DNA of 64,000 nucleotides, taken from NCBI GenBank assembly GCA_020831805.1, contig JAFIFX010000014.1, positions 1-64,000 of the forward strand, given 5' to 3'. Positions within the stretch are counted from its first letter, which is position 1. Every line of letters starts with the position of its first letter. The position numbers and the translations under genes were made by a program. This document shows, piece by piece, positions 47,896 to 54,060 of this stretch. The stretch comes from Planctomycetota bacterium. Lineage in GTDB: Bacteria; Planctomycetota; Phycisphaerae; Phycisphaerales; UBA1924. The notes beneath the pieces are model-generated. The model had not been told where the DNA came from. It saw only the letters and a list, made by a program, of their open reading frames with translations, and made no database searches.

Positions 47896-48717
47896 TCAGT
47901 CTTTGGGGGGTGTCGGCGTGGATTGCGCACCACCGCTTTGGGGTGGTTTTTCGGGCGTTTCGGGCGCGACGCCGGGGAAGGCCTCGTCGGGCGTTCGGTG
48001 GGCGCGGTCGCCCAGGCGGGGCTCGGTGCGGTTGAAGAGGCGTTCGATGTTGGGCCGGTGCTTGTAGACGACGAGGAGGCCCATGACCGCCGCGACGGCG
48101 ACGAAGGGCCAGCCCATGTAAGGCACGACGAGGGTGACGGCGTCGGCCTCGCGCTGGCCGGGGCCGGAGCGGGCGATGAGGTCCTGCTCGCGCAGGTTGC
48201 GGAACTGGGCGTGGGCGTACCAGGTCCACAGGGGCAGGGCCAGGGCCGCGGCGATCGACGCGGCCGAGACATACCGCCACAGCGCCAGCACCATCAGGAA
48301 CACCACGAGCGAGCCGATCCCGGGCAGCGCCAACGCCGGGAAGATCCCCAGCAACGCCCCCAGCCCGGTGGCCACGCCCTTGCCGCCCTTGAAGCCCAGC
48401 CAGGGCGTAAACATGTGCCCGAGCACGGCAGCGACCAGCACCGCCAGCCACCACGCGGCCTGCCCGGGGGGCACGGCCAGCTCGCCGATCAGCCCGGCCC
48501 GGTGCCCGGCGATGAAGGCGGGCACGAAGCCCTTGGCCATGTCGAGCAGGAAGCAGACGAAGAACCACCGAGACCCCAGCATCCGGCCGAGGTTGGTGGC
48601 CCCGATGTTCTTGCTGCCGACGGTGCGCAGGTCGATGCCGTTGGCCTTGCCGAGCAGATAGCCGAACGGGATCGACCCGATCAGGAACGCGGCGATGACG
48701 GCGAGGGGCCAGAACAT
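47896..48717 (-). CDS. plsY: glycerol-3-phosphate acyltransferase PlsY
   Basis: This 273-aa inner-membrane enzyme transfers an acyl group from acyl phosphate to glycerol 3-phosphate, the first step of phospholipid synthesis. Family motifs are IGSIPFGYLLGK with SKNIGATNLGRMLG, the middle LGHMFTPWLGFKGGKGVATG and the later VVYKHRPNIERL. It has the usual five-helix plan plus a hydrophilic C-terminal tail of about 45 residues (PEKPPQSGGAQSTPTPPKD). TACCCT lies five bases before ATG 48717, implying a leaderless message. Confidence 0.93.
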   Translation of the reverse strand: MFWPLAVIAAFLIGSIPFGYLLGKANGIDLRTVGSKNIGATNLGRMLGSRWFFVCFLLDMAKGFVPAFIAGHRAGLIGELAVPPGQAAWWLAVLVAAVLGHMFTPWLGFKGGKGVATGLGALLGIFPALALPGIGSLVVFLMVLALWRYVSAASIAAALALPLWTWYAHAQFRNLREQDLIARSGPGQREADAVTLVVPYMGWPFVAVAAVMGLLVVYKHRPNIERLFNRTEPRLGDRAHRTPDEAFPGVAPETPEKPPQSGGAQSTPTPPKD

Positions 48718-48766
48718 GCGGGAGGGTAGGGAGATGTGGGGACGGGGGGCGGGGGGGGAAGGTGGG

Positions 48767-48800
48767 TACGCGGAGATCACGCGGAGGACGCGGAGGGGGG
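48767..48800. repeat. ACGCGGAG repeat island
   Basis: ACGCGGAGATCACGCGGAGG then ACGCGGAGG: same template as the repeat islands at 1-80, 7740-7790 and 54090-54135. It lies just upstream of plsY. Confidence 0.6.
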
Positions 48801-48976
48801 GAGGGGGGTTTGCAGGATCGGGGGTTGAGGGACGGCGCCACACATGCCCAGGCCACACAAAGTCAGTTTTGGCACTTATCGCGGATGAACGGCAAATCTG
48901 AGTCGATGGCTCGTTGTTTTCGTGGCGAAGTCGATGACTAGACTGGTCAGTTCGACGGCTATTCCGGCGGCCTTGA

Positions 48977-49180
48977 ATGGTGTATTACCTGTGGATGCAA
49001 GTTTGGTTTTGGGGGACCTTTGTGTTCGGGCTCGTGCTCGGAGGTTTTTGTCTGAAGGCTTTCTTGCACTCTGAAAAAGGCTCCACAAGGTACAAGCTCG
49101 CTCTGGCATCCTTCATTACAGTTATGGCGTTGGCCATCGGGTCATTTCTCATCAGATACTTGATCCTGTTTTTCAGCTAA
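48977..49180 (+). CDS. small two-helix membrane protein (tentative)
   Basis: This 67-aa frame encodes two membrane helices (WFWGTFVFGLVLGGFCL and ALASFITVMALAIGSFLI) joined by a short charged loop (HSEKGSTRYK). Composition is less GC-rich than the surroundings. There is no clear ribosome site or TAnnnT hexamer at the usual spacing. The clean double-helix pattern argues for a real gene, but it could be a decayed remnant. No family is recognised. Confidence 0.45.
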   Translation: MVYYLWMQVWFWGTFVFGLVLGGFCLKAFLHSEKGSTRYKLALASFITVMALAIGSFLIRYLILFFS

Positions 49181-49296
49181 GCATTGCTGCGGCCAAGTTC
49201 ACGCGTGGCCTTGGCTCGGAGGGCGAAGGCGGGCATCGGGAGCAGCTCGCGGAGGATCGTGCAGAAGGCTGCGCCGTCTGCACGGCACCCAGAGAG

Positions 49297-49434
49297 AAGC
49301 CCGGAGCGTCAGCGATGGGGCGGTGGCGTTGTAGGGGAGGGGGTCGCTTTCAGTCTTCACTTGCGCGGGTATGAACGGGTGTTGGTGGCGTGGTGGTTGT
49401 GGCTTGGCCTGCCCGCTCACTGGCGTTCGGGGCT
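49297..49434. repeat. facing pair of REP-like repeats before the transposase
   Basis: The + copy at 49297 reads AAGCCCGGAGCGTCAGCGAT then GGGGCGGTGGCG. The inverted copy at 49410-49434 reads TGCCCGCTCACTGGCGTTCG then GGGC. Same two-armed design as at 7588-7725. Confidence 0.7.
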
Positions 49435-49465
49435 TTTGGCCCGGTTGCATCGCCTCGTTACGAAT

Positions 49466-50086
49466 TAGCCCCGAACGCCAGTGAGGGGATGGGTTGTGCG
49501 TGGTGAGCGCCAATGATGCCGCGGGTTCCCATGGGCGACACGCCGACTTACTTCATGACATGGACCACCTACGGCACATGGCTGCCCGGGGATGCGCGTG
49601 GGTCGTTCGTCGATGACCGCGAGCTGGGGCGTGGGTTGAGCGGGCCCAAGCCTCGGCTGGAGCGGGCCGCACGCGGGTTGTTGCGGCATGATCCGGTGGT
49701 GCTGGGCGACGGAGCCCGCGCGGCGGTCGATCAGGCGATCCGGCAGCACGCGTCGTTCCGCGGGTGGGCGTTGGCGGCATTGAATGTGCGGACGAACCAT
49801 GTTCATCTGGTTGTGACGGCCGAGCGGGAACCGGGGCGGGTGATGAGCGAGTTCAAGGCGCGGGCGACGCGGGCGACGCGGGCGGTGCGGGAGGCGGGGT
49901 TGGTGGCGGACGGGCTCACGCTCTGGACGCGGCACGGGAGCACGCGGCATCTGCACACGGACGAATCGAGGGTGCGGGCGATTCGGTATGTGTTGGATTG
50001 TCAGTGAGTGGCGGGGGTGTTGGGCCACTGGGGAGGGGGTTCGGTCATGGGCGTGGAACCCATCCCCTCACTGGCGTTCGGGGCTA
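49466..50086 (+). mobile_element. REP-associated transposase unit bounded by perfect 30-bp inverted repeats
   Basis: The left end 49466-49495 (TAGCCCCGAACGCCAGTGAG then GGGATGGGTT) is the exact reverse complement of 50057-50086. The 621-base unit encloses one Y1 transposase gene and little else. The ends are copies of the REP-like repeat scattered through the window, which is how REP-associated tyrosine transposases and their repeats are usually arranged. Confidence 0.75.
49513..50007 (+). CDS. REP-associated tyrosine transposase (Y1/HUH, RAYT-like)
   Basis: This 164-aa protein begins with PTYFMTWTTYGTWLPGDARG, the start of the IS200/Y1 fold. The metal-binding HUH pair is H96-V-H98 in RTNHVHLVVTAE, and the candidate catalytic Tyr159 lies in AIRYVLDCQ. 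These enzymes cut and join single-stranded DNA at palindromic REP sequences. All key residues are present, so it is probably functional. ATG 49513 and ATG 49516 are adjacent, and 49531 is also possible. The gene sits inside the 30-bp inverted repeat unit. Confidence 0.82.
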   Translation: MMPRVPMGDTPTYFMTWTTYGTWLPGDARGSFVDDRELGRGLSGPKPRLERAARGLLRHDPVVLGDGARAAVDQAIRQHASFRGWALAALNVRTNHVHLVVTAEREPGRVMSEFKARATRATRAVREAGLVADGLTLWTRHGSTRHLHTDESRVRAIRYVLDCQ

Positions 50087-50181
50087 CTTGTGGTGGGCGG
50101 ACACCCTTTGGGTGCAGCAAACTTTACGGCCGCGAGTGAGCGGGGTGCGGTGCAGTACCGTCTATTCAATCAGATTGTTGC

Positions 50182-50187
50182 TATCTT
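50182..50187 (+). promoter_or_regulatory. -10 hexamer before the 33-codon frame
   Basis: TATCTT, then ACCGGC and ATG 50194, in an AT-rich patch. Spacing is six bases, as in other leaderless starts here. Confidence 0.4.
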
Positions 50188-50193
50188 ACCGGC

Positions 50194-50295
50194 ATGGCGT
50201 CGATGCTTGCCAAGCCAAGGTTGTGGCGGCCCGCATCAGCGGGGGTGATTGGGGGCTTGGCGTTCGACCGTGCGCGTGATCGGCGGCGGGCGTGA
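50194..50295 (+). CDS. 33-codon leader reading frame coupled to the next gene (tentative)
   Basis: This frame encodes a 33-residue basic peptide (MASMLAKPRLWRPASAGV then IGGLAFDRARDRRRA). Its TGA overlaps the next ATG as TGATG, so a ribosome finishing here could restart on the membrane protein gene, which has no ribosome site of its own. The TATCTT hexamer six bases before its ATG fits a leaderless transcript. It may serve only to deliver ribosomes to the next gene. Confidence 0.4.
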   Translation: MASMLAKPRLWRPASAGVIGGLAFDRARDRRRA

Positions 50296-51311
50296 TGCCC
50301 GGCCAGGACATCCTGGTGGTGGCAGGGATCGTGCTGGTGCTGCTGGCGCCGGCGGTGTATGTCCATGCGTGGGCGGAGCAGGAGCGGGTGCGGGGGTTGG
50401 TGCGGCGGCGCGGGGGGCGTGCTTTGTGTGTTGGGTGTGGGTACCCGGTACGGTCGGACGGCGCGGGTGCCTGTCCTGAGTGCGGGTTGGCGGCCGGGGC
50501 GTTGCCGCGGGCGCGGGCGTTGGTGCGGTTTTACAGCGTGCCGGGGCTGGTGGTGCTGGCGTTGACGGGGGCGGCGCTGGTTCCGGTGCTGCGGATGCTG
50601 GATGTGGCGCACGATCTCGGCTGGGCGCGGATCGAGGCGACGGGGCGGTTGGACGGGATGGATGCGTCGTATGTGCTTGAGGCGCACGCGTGGCCGCGGG
50701 GCGGGGTGGTGTTCCTGCGGGCGCCGGGGAATGCGGTGGTCGTTTCGTCGGGGGGTGGGGGTGGGGGGGAGCGGCCGCGATGGCCGCCGGGATCTGGGCT
50801 GCGGCTCGGAGACGCGGTGCGGATCGATGTGCATCTGCGTGTCGGGGGGTCTGAGCTGGTCGGGTTTGTGTCCGCTGTGCCGGATGATGCGTTCGAGACG
50901 GTGGTGGACACGGGCTCCGGGGGCGAGTCGATCCGGGCGTTCCTGCTGCGGAGCGGGGTTTCGCCGGCGTGGATCGATGAGCGGGCGGGGCTGGACCGGC
51001 GGGCGGCGATGCGGCACGCGGCGCCGGATCTCGGCGTGACCCTGCCGCTGAATCTGCGGTGGCTGGATCCGGCGGAGGCGACGCGCAACGAGTTCGGGCG
51101 GCTGGGGCGCTCGCCCGGTCTGGGCTACATCAACAGTGACTGGTTGGGAACGCCGGGTGTCGAGGGCGTCCGGTTCATCTCCGGCAGCGCGGGGGTCCGG
51201 CGATTTCTGCCGGTGTGGGCGTGCTTCGTGATCGGGGTGGTGCTGGCGCACCCGGCGCGGCTGGCGGGGGTGTGGATCGCGGGGCGGATGGCGATTGATC
51301 CTGGCAAGTAG
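50295..51311 (+). CDS. membrane protein with N-terminal zinc ribbon
   Basis: This 338-aa protein has an N-terminal membrane helix (ILVVAGIVLVLLAPAVYVHAW), a zinc ribbon soon after (CVGCGYPVRSDGAGACPECG, about residues 45-65), a second helix (VPGLVVLALTGAALVPVL), a long extracytoplasmic domain and a C-terminal helix (VWACFVIGVVLAHPARLAGV). The ribbon is the same CxxCGY/CPECG type as in the proteins at 40087 and 42835, but here it lies between two membrane helices. Function unknown. The start is ATG 50295 (GTG 50292 is one codon upstream), coupled to the small frame before it. Confidence 0.65.
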   Translation: MPGQDILVVAGIVLVLLAPAVYVHAWAEQERVRGLVRRRGGRALCVGCGYPVRSDGAGACPECGLAAGALPRARALVRFYSVPGLVVLALTGAALVPVLRMLDVAHDLGWARIEATGRLDGMDASYVLEAHAWPRGGVVFLRAPGNAVVVSSGGGGGGERPRWPPGSGLRLGDAVRIDVHLRVGGSELVGFVSAVPDDAFETVVDTGSGGESIRAFLLRSGVSPAWIDERAGLDRRAAMRHAAPDLGVTLPLNLRWLDPAEATRNEFGRLGRSPGLGYINSDWLGTPGVEGVRFISGSAGVRRFLPVWACFVIGVVLAHPARLAGVWIAGRMAIDPGK

Positions 51312-51413
51312 CCCCGAACGCCAGTGCGGGGATGGGTTGTGCTCGGGCGTTTCGGAGGTTGGGGAGAGATTCGTTCGTGGGCGTGCATACCCCCTCACTG
51401 GCGTTCGGGGCTA
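51309..51413. mobile_element. miniature REP-type element without transposase
   Basis: TAGCCCCGAACGCCAGTG at 51309 and its inverted partner CACTGGCGTTCGGGGCTA ending at 51413 bound about 105 bases with no coding capacity. The ends match those of the transposase unit at 49466-50086, so this looks like a shortened copy moved in trans. The left end overlaps the stop codon of the zinc-ribbon gene. Confidence 0.65.
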
Positions 51414-51452
51414 TTTGGGTTTGTGGGTGCATGGGATGCGGCGGCGGTGCTG

Positions 51453-51983
51453 TTATGCGTTGGTCATGCGCGGGTCGTCGTGGAAGATGAAGTCGATGAC
51501 CGGGGCCTTGATGCTCGTTCGGTAGCCGCCGGGCTTGTTTGTTTCTTCGCGGCCTGCGTGGGGCGTCACGCCGACCGCGTCGCGGATGTCGTAGTCCGGA
51601 GGGAGATCTGGGAAATCGAGGTAAAAGTTGTCGCCGACGATGACCAGATCCGGTTTGCGGCGGAAGTGGAGTTTGTAGAGCAGGTAGCCCATGCCGGACT
51701 CGCCGGCGCTGTAGAGCGTTCGGGCTATCGCGATCGGGAGGCGGTGCGGGCTCTCGCGGATGGCGGTGACGCGCTCGGGGTTGATCCAGTCGCCCGCGTC
51801 GGAGTATCGGGCGAAGTGGTTGCAGTAGGCTCGCTCGCGGACCGTGCCGTCGGCGAGCGTGACGGCGCAGGGGTAGTACAGGGTGTGCTCGGAGCCGTGA
51901 TGCTTGTCGTAGGAAGGCTCGATGGCGCGGATGGCCGCGGATTGGGCGGGGGTGGTGGCGTTGATGGGGCGGAGCGACGGCAC
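51453..51983 (-). CDS. hypothetical protein
   Basis: From GTG 51983 this is a 176-aa protein of mixed alpha/beta character with a Cys-containing stretch (RERAYCNHFARYSDAGDWI), a middle ESGMGYLLYKLHFRRKPDL and a C-terminal VIDFIFHDDP. No family is recognised. The GTG is placed by TACTGT five bases upstream; a longer open frame up to 52193 would run into non-coding sequence and a hairpin near 52003-52025. It is divergent from the EVE-nuclease gene. Confidence 0.55.
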   Translation of the reverse strand: MPSLRPINATTPAQSAAIRAIEPSYDKHHGSEHTLYYPCAVTLADGTVRERAYCNHFARYSDAGDWINPERVTAIRESPHRLPIAIARTLYSAGESGMGYLLYKLHFRRKPDLVIVGDNFYLDFPDLPPDYDIRDAVGVTPHAGREETNKPGGYRTSIKAPVIDFIFHDDPRMTNA

Positions 51984-51988
51984 GGGGG

Positions 51989-51994
51989 ACAGTA
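51989..51994 (-). promoter_or_regulatory. -10 hexamer deciding the start at 51983
   Basis: TACTGT on the minus strand, five C, then GTG. Confidence 0.45.
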
Positions 51995-52182
51995 TCGCGT
52001 GTGCGGGGGAGGTTTCCCCCCGCACCCCCTCTGAGCATGGCGTGCTCCGGCCCGGATGGTGAAGCATGCGGGATTGGGCGTGTGGGGCGAAGGCGGGCAA
52101 CGGGGCGGAATATGGAGTCGAAGTGCGGCGCGAGGCGCACGCTCGTTTTCTGGAGACTGGCTCCTGCTTGATGCGCATGCGA

Positions 52183-52188
52183 TAAGAT
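52183..52188 (+). promoter_or_regulatory. -10 hexamer of the EVE-nuclease gene
   Basis: TAAGAT, AGCAC, ATG 52194. No recognisable -35. Confidence 0.55.
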
Positions 52189-52193
52189 AGCAC

Positions 52194-53300
52194 ATGCAGT
52201 TTTATACTCAGTTATATACCCCAGAAACCTTTGTGGCATTTTCCGAAACCGACCAGCGGCTCACGGGAGTGCGTCCGACACAGGGCTCGATGGCCGACAG
52301 GCTTCAGCTCGGGGATCTCCTTCTCTGCTACATGACGGTATTCTCACGGTGGGTCGGGGCGCTTCGAGTGACCGGGCGTCCATACTTCGACGAGCACCCA
52401 ATACTATTTGAAGGTGATCCATTTACGCTACGGATTCCAGTAGAACCGATTTGCTGGCTTGATCGAGATCAGACTGTTCCGATCCAAGATCCAATCCTTT
52501 GGAATCACCTTTCGTTCACGAGAGAACTTCCGATCGGCTCAACGGCATGGACCGGAAAAGTTAGACGAAGTCTTTATGCTATCGATGTTCCAGATGGAAC
52601 TATATTGCTTGATGTTTTGAATCAGCAGGTCGGCAAACAAGGGGAGTATCCGATTGATCCTGATGAGTTCAATCGATCCATGAAACAAAAAGTTCGTAAA
52701 GCGACAGGGTCAGTTCTCGTATCAATTCCTGAAGAGAACAATTCCGAGTCCCAGACGTCCTCGGATGTATGCCCTACTGATGAGGCGCGTTCGGCGCATC
52801 GCATGCAGGCGACGCTGGCCAGAATCGGTGAGGCAACCGGTCATCAAATCTGGATACCCGCTAACGATCGAAGCCGAGTGCAGGCACATTGGGATCCAGA
52901 GACCGGTACACTGCTCAGTTCGCTTCCATTGAGCTACGACGAGGCGACAATCAAGACGGTTGAGCAGATCGATGTGCTTTGGATCAGAGGTCGCTCAATT
53001 CGCCGTGCGTTCGAGGTAGAGCACACGACTGCGATTTACTCTGGTTTGCTTCGGATGGCCGATCTTTTGGCTTTGCAGGGCAACATGCAAATTGCCTTGC
53101 ATATTGTAGCGCCGCTTGAACGAAGAACCTCCGTACTTAATCAAATTAACCGCCCTGTTTTTTCCTTGCTTGAGAATGCACCGCTCTCGGAGCGATGTTC
53201 ATTTTTGTCGTATGACGACATTGAGGAAATCGGTAATCTTCGGCATCTCGACCGTATGCGCGATGAAATTCTTGACGACTACGCAGATATGGCTAATTGA
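52194..53300 (+). CDS. EVE-like domain fused to PD-(D/E)XK-like nuclease domain (candidate defence protein)
   Basis: This 368-aa protein has an N-terminal EVE/PUA-like region (about residues 1-145: YTPETFVAFSETDQRLTGVR, LLCYMTVFSRWVGALRVTG, then FTLRIPVEPICWLD). A polar linker follows (150-200) and then a C-terminal domain with IGEATGHQIWIPANDRSR, Asp260 in EQIDVLWIRG and the pair Glu274/Glu276 in RAFEVEHTTAIYSGLLRMAD, a layout of restriction-type nuclease folds. EVE domains read modified bases in known systems, so a modification-dependent nuclease is a fair inference, not shown. The gene is clearly AT-richer than its neighbours, stands alone, has its own leaderless promoter, and lies beside mobile repeats. 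Confidence 0.65.
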   Translation: MQFYTQLYTPETFVAFSETDQRLTGVRPTQGSMADRLQLGDLLLCYMTVFSRWVGALRVTGRPYFDEHPILFEGDPFTLRIPVEPICWLDRDQTVPIQDPILWNHLSFTRELPIGSTAWTGKVRRSLYAIDVPDGTILLDVLNQQVGKQGEYPIDPDEFNRSMKQKVRKATGSVLVSIPEENNSESQTSSDVCPTDEARSAHRMQATLARIGEATGHQIWIPANDRSRVQAHWDPETGTLLSSLPLSYDEATIKTVEQIDVLWIRGRSIRRAFEVEHTTAIYSGLLRMADLLALQGNMQIALHIVAPLERRTSVLNQINRPVFSLLENAPLSERCSFLSYDDIEEIGNLRHLDRMRDEILDDYADMAN

Positions 53301-53364
53301 TCCGCTGTGGAATGATTAAAGACGGCGGTTGATGTCCTGGCAGATGTCGATGTTGACGATGCGC

Positions 53365-54060
53365 CTAAGTCGATTTGAGTTCTGCGGTGAGAATCTGGAG
53401 GATGTTGGCGAACACCTCGTCGGGGGCACCTCGGGCATCGACGGGTTGGTACGCCCCGCCGCGGGCGATGAGGGTTTTGTAGCCGGCGCGGACCTTGGCG
53501 TGGAAGTCTTCGCCCTTGGATTCCATGCGGTCGAGCAGGGGGTTGAGGCGGCTGGCGGCGGTCTGCTGGTCGATGTCGAAGATCAGGGTGGCGTCGGGGG
53601 TGACGCCCTGGGTGGCGATGCGGCCGGCGGCCTCGATCTCGGCGGCGGGGATGCCGCCCGCGTGGCCCTGGTAGACGAGCGTGGAACTGATGAAGCGGTC
53701 GGCGACGACGAGCTTGTTCTGTTTGAGCGCGGGGCCGATGACGCGCTCGCAGAGCTGGGCGCGGCTGGCCATGTAGAGGAGCATCTCGCAGCGGAGGGAC
53801 ATCTCGTCGCGTTCGAGGTGGTCGAGCAGGGCGCGGCGGATGCGTTCGCCGACCTCGGTGCCGCCGGGCTCGCGGACCTCGATGGTCTCGATGCCGGCGG
53901 CGCGGGCGGCGGCGACGAAGCGTTTGTGCTGGGTGGATTTGCCGGAGCCGTCGGGGCCGTCGAAGACGAGAAACTTGCCGCGCAGGGCCTTGGCGAGGGC
54001 GGGGGGGATGGTGTCGGCTTGGCGCGGGGTGGTGGTCACGGCGGTGGTTTGGGCGGGCAC
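53365..54060 (-). CDS. tmk: thymidylate kinase
   Basis: This 231-aa enzyme phosphorylates dTMP to dTDP. The P-loop is FDGPDGSGKST (residues 33-43), the DRX motif lies in VVADRFISSTLVYQG, and the substrate region in REPGGTEVGERIR. The C-terminal lid segment is short (LDRMESKGEDFHAKVRAGY). The start is GTG 54060, placed by TACACT six bases upstream; another in-frame GTG follows 21 bases downstream. It is convergent with the EVE-nuclease gene and follows the VWA-like gene on its strand. Confidence 0.93.
   Translation of the reverse strand: MPAQTTAVTTTPRQADTIPPALAKALRGKFLVFDGPDGSGKSTQHKRFVAAARAAGIETIEVREPGGTEVGERIRRALLDHLERDEMSLRCEMLLYMASRAQLCERVIGPALKQNKLVVADRFISSTLVYQGHAGGIPAAEIEAAGRIATQGVTPDATLIFDIDQQTAASRLNPLLDRMESKGEDFHAKVRAGYKTLIARGGAYQPVDARGAPDEVFANILQILTAELKST

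Follow-up and report, generated by a model that had tools for sequence, protein, structure and literature searches.

A stand-alone gene for an EVE and a PD-(D/E)XK-type domain in a variable segment of a Planctomycetota genome, a predicted modification-dependent restriction endonuclease

The window, the whole stretch of DNA that was analysed (64,000 nucleotides of contig JAFIFX010000014.1 of a Planctomycetota bacterium), carries on the forward strand at 52194-53300 an intact open reading frame of 368 amino acids with an ATG start. The coordinates were exactly as given by an earlier reading made from the letters alone, referred to here as the sequence-only reading. The ATG start is supported by the alignments of the homologues, which begin at residue 1, with Met1 present in 66 of 75. 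The gene occurs once in its genome. Its neighbours are a divergent unknown gene upstream and a convergent gene downstream that by eye is thymidylate-kinase-like; no methyltransferase gene lies beside it. The following features were assigned:

48713..53397, no strand: variable 4.7-kb segment holding the gene (blastn against contigs of the genomes G001 and G002)
52194..53300, + strand: whole gene, EVE plus PD-(D/E)XK-type restriction nuclease domain, predicted (single open reading frame, 368 aa)
52194..52628, + strand: residues 1-145, EVE domain (PUA/YTH superfamily), predicted sensor of modified bases (profile, Pfam, NCBIfam, Foldseek)
52629..52766, + strand: residues 146-191, linker containing a small beta-hairpin and a helix, disordered in part (181-188; AlphaFold2 model)
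52767..53297, + strand: residues 192-368, predicted restriction-nuclease domain, PADLOC REase_II family, order alpha-beta-beta-beta-alpha-beta
52806..52808, + strand: codon of the invariant Gln205, first helix of the nuclease domain (75/75 and the 58-row alignment)
52971..52973, + strand: codon of Asp260, a residue at the foot of strand 261-265 and predicted to bind metal (invariance, DSSP)
53013..53021, + strand: codons of Glu274-Val-Glu276, E-x-E motif, predicted catalytic pair (Glu274 and Glu276 invariant)

In its host the gene is a foreign element. As already noticed from the letters, it is richer in A+T than its surroundings: the G+C content is 50.3 % against 70.0 % for the window, and third codon positions have 50 % G+C against 89 % (the downstream gene) and 83 % in its two neighbours. 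Of 1,258 equally long stretches, a single one was as low or lower in G+C, and it was positioned over the gene. Two genomes of the same genus (G001, G002) both lack the gene. In these, the flanks, which match the window up to position 48712 (in the second genome 48705) and again from position 53398, are separated by 84 bp and by about 250 bp in place of the 4,685 bp present here; the entire segment is thus variable among close relatives. Within the segment missing from the relatives are also REP-like repeats (window 49400-51420, core CCCCTCACTGGCGTTCGGGGCT, at least five copies in both orientations) and, amid them, at 49513-50007, the gene of a transposase of the Y1/RAYT type (Pfam Y1_Tnp 7e-4, below the cut-off). 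The proposal that the gene lies next to mobile repeats holds in part: repeats and transposase gene are present 0.8-2.8 kb upstream, but they are not directly adjacent.

Searched by itself, the window protein had no usable match in Pfam, NCBIfam or PHROGs, so profiles of homologues were needed. The full-length alignment comprised 75 homologues, the alignment of the C-terminal domain 58 copies from several architectures. Compared with the PDB, the 75-homologue profile found two EVE proteins of solved structure, PH1033 over residues 1-143 with E 4.7e-9 and MJECL36 with E 2e-8. Pfam EVE had no match to the window protein alone and matched 57 of the 75 homologues (best 1.2e-6); NCBIfam PRK00809 matched several homologues, the best with 7e-10, though short of the cut-off set for this model. 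The AlphaFold2 model of the complete protein had a pLDDT of 89.0, and a Foldseek search with it returned PH1033 at the top (1wmm, E 1.3e-6, TMt 0.74); after the PH1033 and MJECL36 structures the closest folds were many YTH domains, in line with a PUA/YTH-like fold. Since the profile, the Pfam and NCBIfam matches in the homologues and the fold search concur, the prediction of an EVE domain in residues 1-145 is secure, and the EVE-like character suspected for the N-terminal half was borne out. PH1033 and MJECL36 (UPF0310) are stand-alone EVE proteins, alike over residues 1-143 but without a nuclease domain. A separate protein of 185 aa in another genome of the phylum (L028) likewise has the same EVE domain without the nuclease. 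In the linker following the EVE domain, the pLDDT falls below 50 within residues 181-188.

The C-terminal domain is predicted from profiles and models to be a restriction-nuclease domain with the PD-(D/E)XK plan. The PADLOC profile REase_II for type II restriction enzymes matched residues 194-328 with 1.1e-10. In two AlphaFold2 models, the secondary-structure string, judged by eye, follows the core order alpha-beta-beta-beta-alpha-beta of the superfamily: a helix, a strand, a strand with D260, a strand with E274/E276, a helix and a strand. According to DSSP, D260 lies at the foot of strand 261-265, and strand 268-275 ends at E274/E276. The model of the isolated domain had a pLDDT of 89.5 and a pTM of 0.88, and its first six fold matches in the PDB were all restriction enzymes, namely BamHI, BsaWI and EcoT38I, with weak E-values of 0.04-0.3. 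D260, E274, E276 and also Q205 are invariant in 75/75 full-length homologues. Among the 58 aligned C-terminal domains only Q205, G212, D260, W263, E274 and E276 are invariant. The sequence-only reading had named Asp260 and Glu274/Glu276 as a nuclease-like pattern and had made its case depend on their conservation and on a nuclease-like fold; the residues are conserved, and the fold is predicted to be nuclease-like.

The usual PD-(D/E)XK active site is D...E-x-K. The active site here is predicted to be D...E-x-E, as in BamHI, with glutamate in place of the lysine, an accepted variant of the conserved residues; in BamHI the motif lysine is replaced by glutamate (PMC4081073). BamHI, a type IIP enzyme, resembles the C-terminal domain in the D...E-x-E site and as its best PDB match, with a weak E-value, but is sequence-specific and has no EVE domain. 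Membership of the BamHI family was not supported by sequence: hhalign, run with a BamHI sequence identical to PDB 1bam, gave a probability of 0.1 %, and in the weak local alignment the register was off by one residue at the E-x-E motif. As the sequence relation is not significant, the likeness is one of plan and motif and not a demonstrated family membership.

By alignment, the predicted nuclease domain is reused with N-terminal modules other than EVE. Proteins of about 430 aa, on plasmids and in Planctomycetes (L005-L010, L017-L018, L020-L021, L023-L027, L037-L039), carry the C-terminal domain with the invariant D/E/E and are automatically annotated as 'type II restriction endonuclease'. They have this domain in common with the window protein, but their N-terminal 250 aa are unrelated to EVE and, for the one protein searched, had no Pfam match; a helix-hairpin-helix-like stretch 'KGLGPAxAN' was seen there by eye. 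Proteins of this type are widespread on plasmids. In three plasmid copies viewed no cognate methyltransferase directly adjoins the gene; the Streptomyces copy among them has genes with methyltransferase domains of uncertain substrate 2 kb off. Short proteins with the nuclease domain showed a weak match to HARE-HTH below the Pfam cut-off, and in L019 and L022 the same domain stands behind another, unidentified N-terminus. One open frame (L029, contig C270 of genome G320) combines three parts, an adenine-methylase region with PADLOC matches to PglX/MTase_II, a middle stretch and this nuclease domain; judged from these matches, it is possibly a type IIG-like single-chain enzyme.

Each species was represented by one genome in a scan with patterns drawn from the nuclease half and thus without selection for EVE. 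It gave 176 places that encode a match; of these, the best 80, in a ranking that favours full-length matches, were full-length or nearly so. Homologues occur in 80 genomes or more, spread over many phyla of bacteria and including one Hadesarchaeon, and the carriers include the culturable genera Snodgrassella, Spirosoma, Variovorax and Chloroflexus. In a maximum-likelihood tree, which includes binned genomes and whose bootstrap values are not fully settled, the 18 phylum groups need 25 changes; the least possible number is 17 and the mean after shuffling 45. Several well-supported branches mix phyla, and the sequences of one Neisseriaceae and one Orbaceae bee symbiont form a sister pair with a support of 100/99. 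The tree pattern fits horizontal spread; as the phylum labels are clustered well below the shuffled mean, transfer was not rampant. Phage records gave no match to the protein and plasmid records no full-length match. A scan of viral contigs with one protein as query found nothing, and a scan with the alignment as query found two contigs (L120, L121); an alignment of the N-terminal part only was too variable for this purpose. L121 has a gene resembling a phage tail tape-measure protein (by eye), and L120 encodes a serine recombinase together with an amino acid:DNA transferase domain. The latter belongs to a protein of 711 aa (L120:1018-3150) with a PLP-enzyme region and a Pfam ADDT match of 1.5e-16 on the same contig as the EVE-nuclease gene, which suggests, from domain matches, base hypermodification near a modification-dependent nuclease.

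No recurrent partner gene was found across 82 loci. Type I restriction-modification genes adjoin the gene in six of them (L066, L084, L085, L101, L104, L106), type III genes in L040, and in the archaeal locus L048 an Eco57I-like methylase is nearby; some names of restriction subunits were assigned by eye. In three bee-gut symbionts from two classes of Proteobacteria, Snodgrassella, Gilliamella and Schmidhempelia (L066, L084, L085), the gene lies directly downstream of hsdR of a type I operon; the hsdR genes of L066 and L084 are 86 % identical, as though all this had been moved as one set. In the survey of homologue neighbourhoods for defence genes, suggested beforehand, about seven loci thus had restriction genes of type I or III as neighbours; only a minority of the loci adjoins defence genes, and a comparison of near and far neighbours by PADLOC, whose output counts families and not proteins, gave no clean enrichment. 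The link of the neighbourhoods to defence is modest and not decisive.

We consider the gene product, with a probability of about 0.72 and on the strength of domain assignments and models, to be a stand-alone, single-protein, modification-dependent (type IV-like) restriction endonuclease, in outline as proposed by the sequence-only reading. A predicted sensor domain is joined to a predicted nuclease, with no methyltransferase gene adjacent, which is the type IV arrangement. EVE-PD(D/E)XK type IV restriction endonucleases were predicted as a class by Bell, Wolf and Koonin in 2020 (Fig. 7, PMC7641849); the class has the same core architecture and predicted role and is itself a prediction. The one characterised EVE endonuclease, VcaM4I (EVE-HNH), acts on 5mC/5hmC DNA, and its EVE domain flips the base into a hydrophobic pocket (PMC7897488). 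Common to VcaM4I and the window protein is the N-terminal EVE sensor with a C-terminal nuclease in one chain, but the nuclease is of the HNH type there and PD-(D/E)XK here. We infer the following course, which covers the dependence on modification as well as base flipping, dimer formation, cleavage and the target. In foreign DNA, the EVE domain would flip out a modified base and hold it in its pocket, and the PD-(D/E)XK domain, probably dimeric, would cut near this base, the metal ions for cleavage being held by D260, E274 and E276 in an E-x-E site as in BamHI. Because the enzyme would attack modified DNA, it would need no partner methyltransferase, which suits a gene travelling alone. By analogy, a modified cytosine is the leading guess for the target, since VcaM4I reads 5mC/5hmC and the host has no detectable C5-cytosine methyltransferase. 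In the host genome PF00145 had no match (a control was positive in 10/14), and several N6/N4 methyltransferases are present, including PF01555 and PF02384; a modified cytosine would therefore be a safe 'foreign' mark, though at about 93 % completeness of the assembly an unseen methyltransferase is possible.

The PADLOC name 'type II' would imply unmodified targets and argues against a dependence on modification, as does the annotation of the plasmid relatives as type II restriction endonucleases; L029, moreover, has an adenine-methylase region and the nuclease domain in one frame. The protein may thus be a sequence-specific type II-like nuclease in which EVE is a DNA- or RNA-binding arm not reading modification, for example with a distant or orphan methyltransferase as guard. 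We regard this as unlikely, because a methyltransferase gene is neither adjacent nor recurrent, in the window or in most of the 82 loci, the label of the relatives is automatic with no cognate methyltransferase directly adjoining in the three plasmid copies, and EVE is a known reader of modified bases in restriction enzymes (PMC7897488, PMC7641849). Further points against a modification-dependent restriction endonuclease are the weak fold matches of the C-terminal domain (best E 0.038, BamHI), the profile alignment with BamHI that is not significant, and the minority of loci that adjoins defence genes with no clean enrichment.

Relatives in the EVE/YTH group bind RNA too. With YTH readers of RNA as the closest folds after PH1033 and MJECL36, and with EVE domains in predicted toxin-antitoxin settings (PMC7641849), an RNA-directed enzyme or toxin could be imagined, whose EVE/YTH-like domain would recognise modified RNA, be it tRNA or phage mRNA, for cleavage by the nuclease; this is very improbable, as the C-terminal domain resembles DNA restriction enzymes and no antitoxin-like partner recurs across the loci examined. 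The solitary position of the gene, often amid metabolic genes, would also suit a cellular enzyme of DNA repair or epigenetics without a role in defence. Such a role is quite unlikely for a gene that is patchy in occurrence, absent from both same-genus genomes, full-length in three copies among 150 relatives, of mixed phylogeny and of foreign composition. The preferred reading, a modification-dependent restriction endonuclease, may be extended to widespread, horizontally spread nucleases with a BamHI-type E-x-E site, in which the nuclease module was joined repeatedly to different sensor modules, EVE, HARE-HTH and others, and the EVE branch reads a mark other than 5mC/5hmC; this wider picture is tentative and, taken as a whole, rather doubtful.

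Enzymes that cut only modified DNA defend bacteria against phages which disguise their DNA, and they are used in the laboratory to map where DNA is modified. Beyond the prediction of 2020, the analysis adds the invariant E-x-E site, a nuclease module common to other N-terminal modules, the spread over species and the empty site in relatives. A limited literature search found no report of a purified and tested EVE-PD(D/E)XK enzyme; thus this compact one-gene family, with members in many phyla, culturable carriers and clear predicted catalytic residues to mutate, would directly test that prediction.
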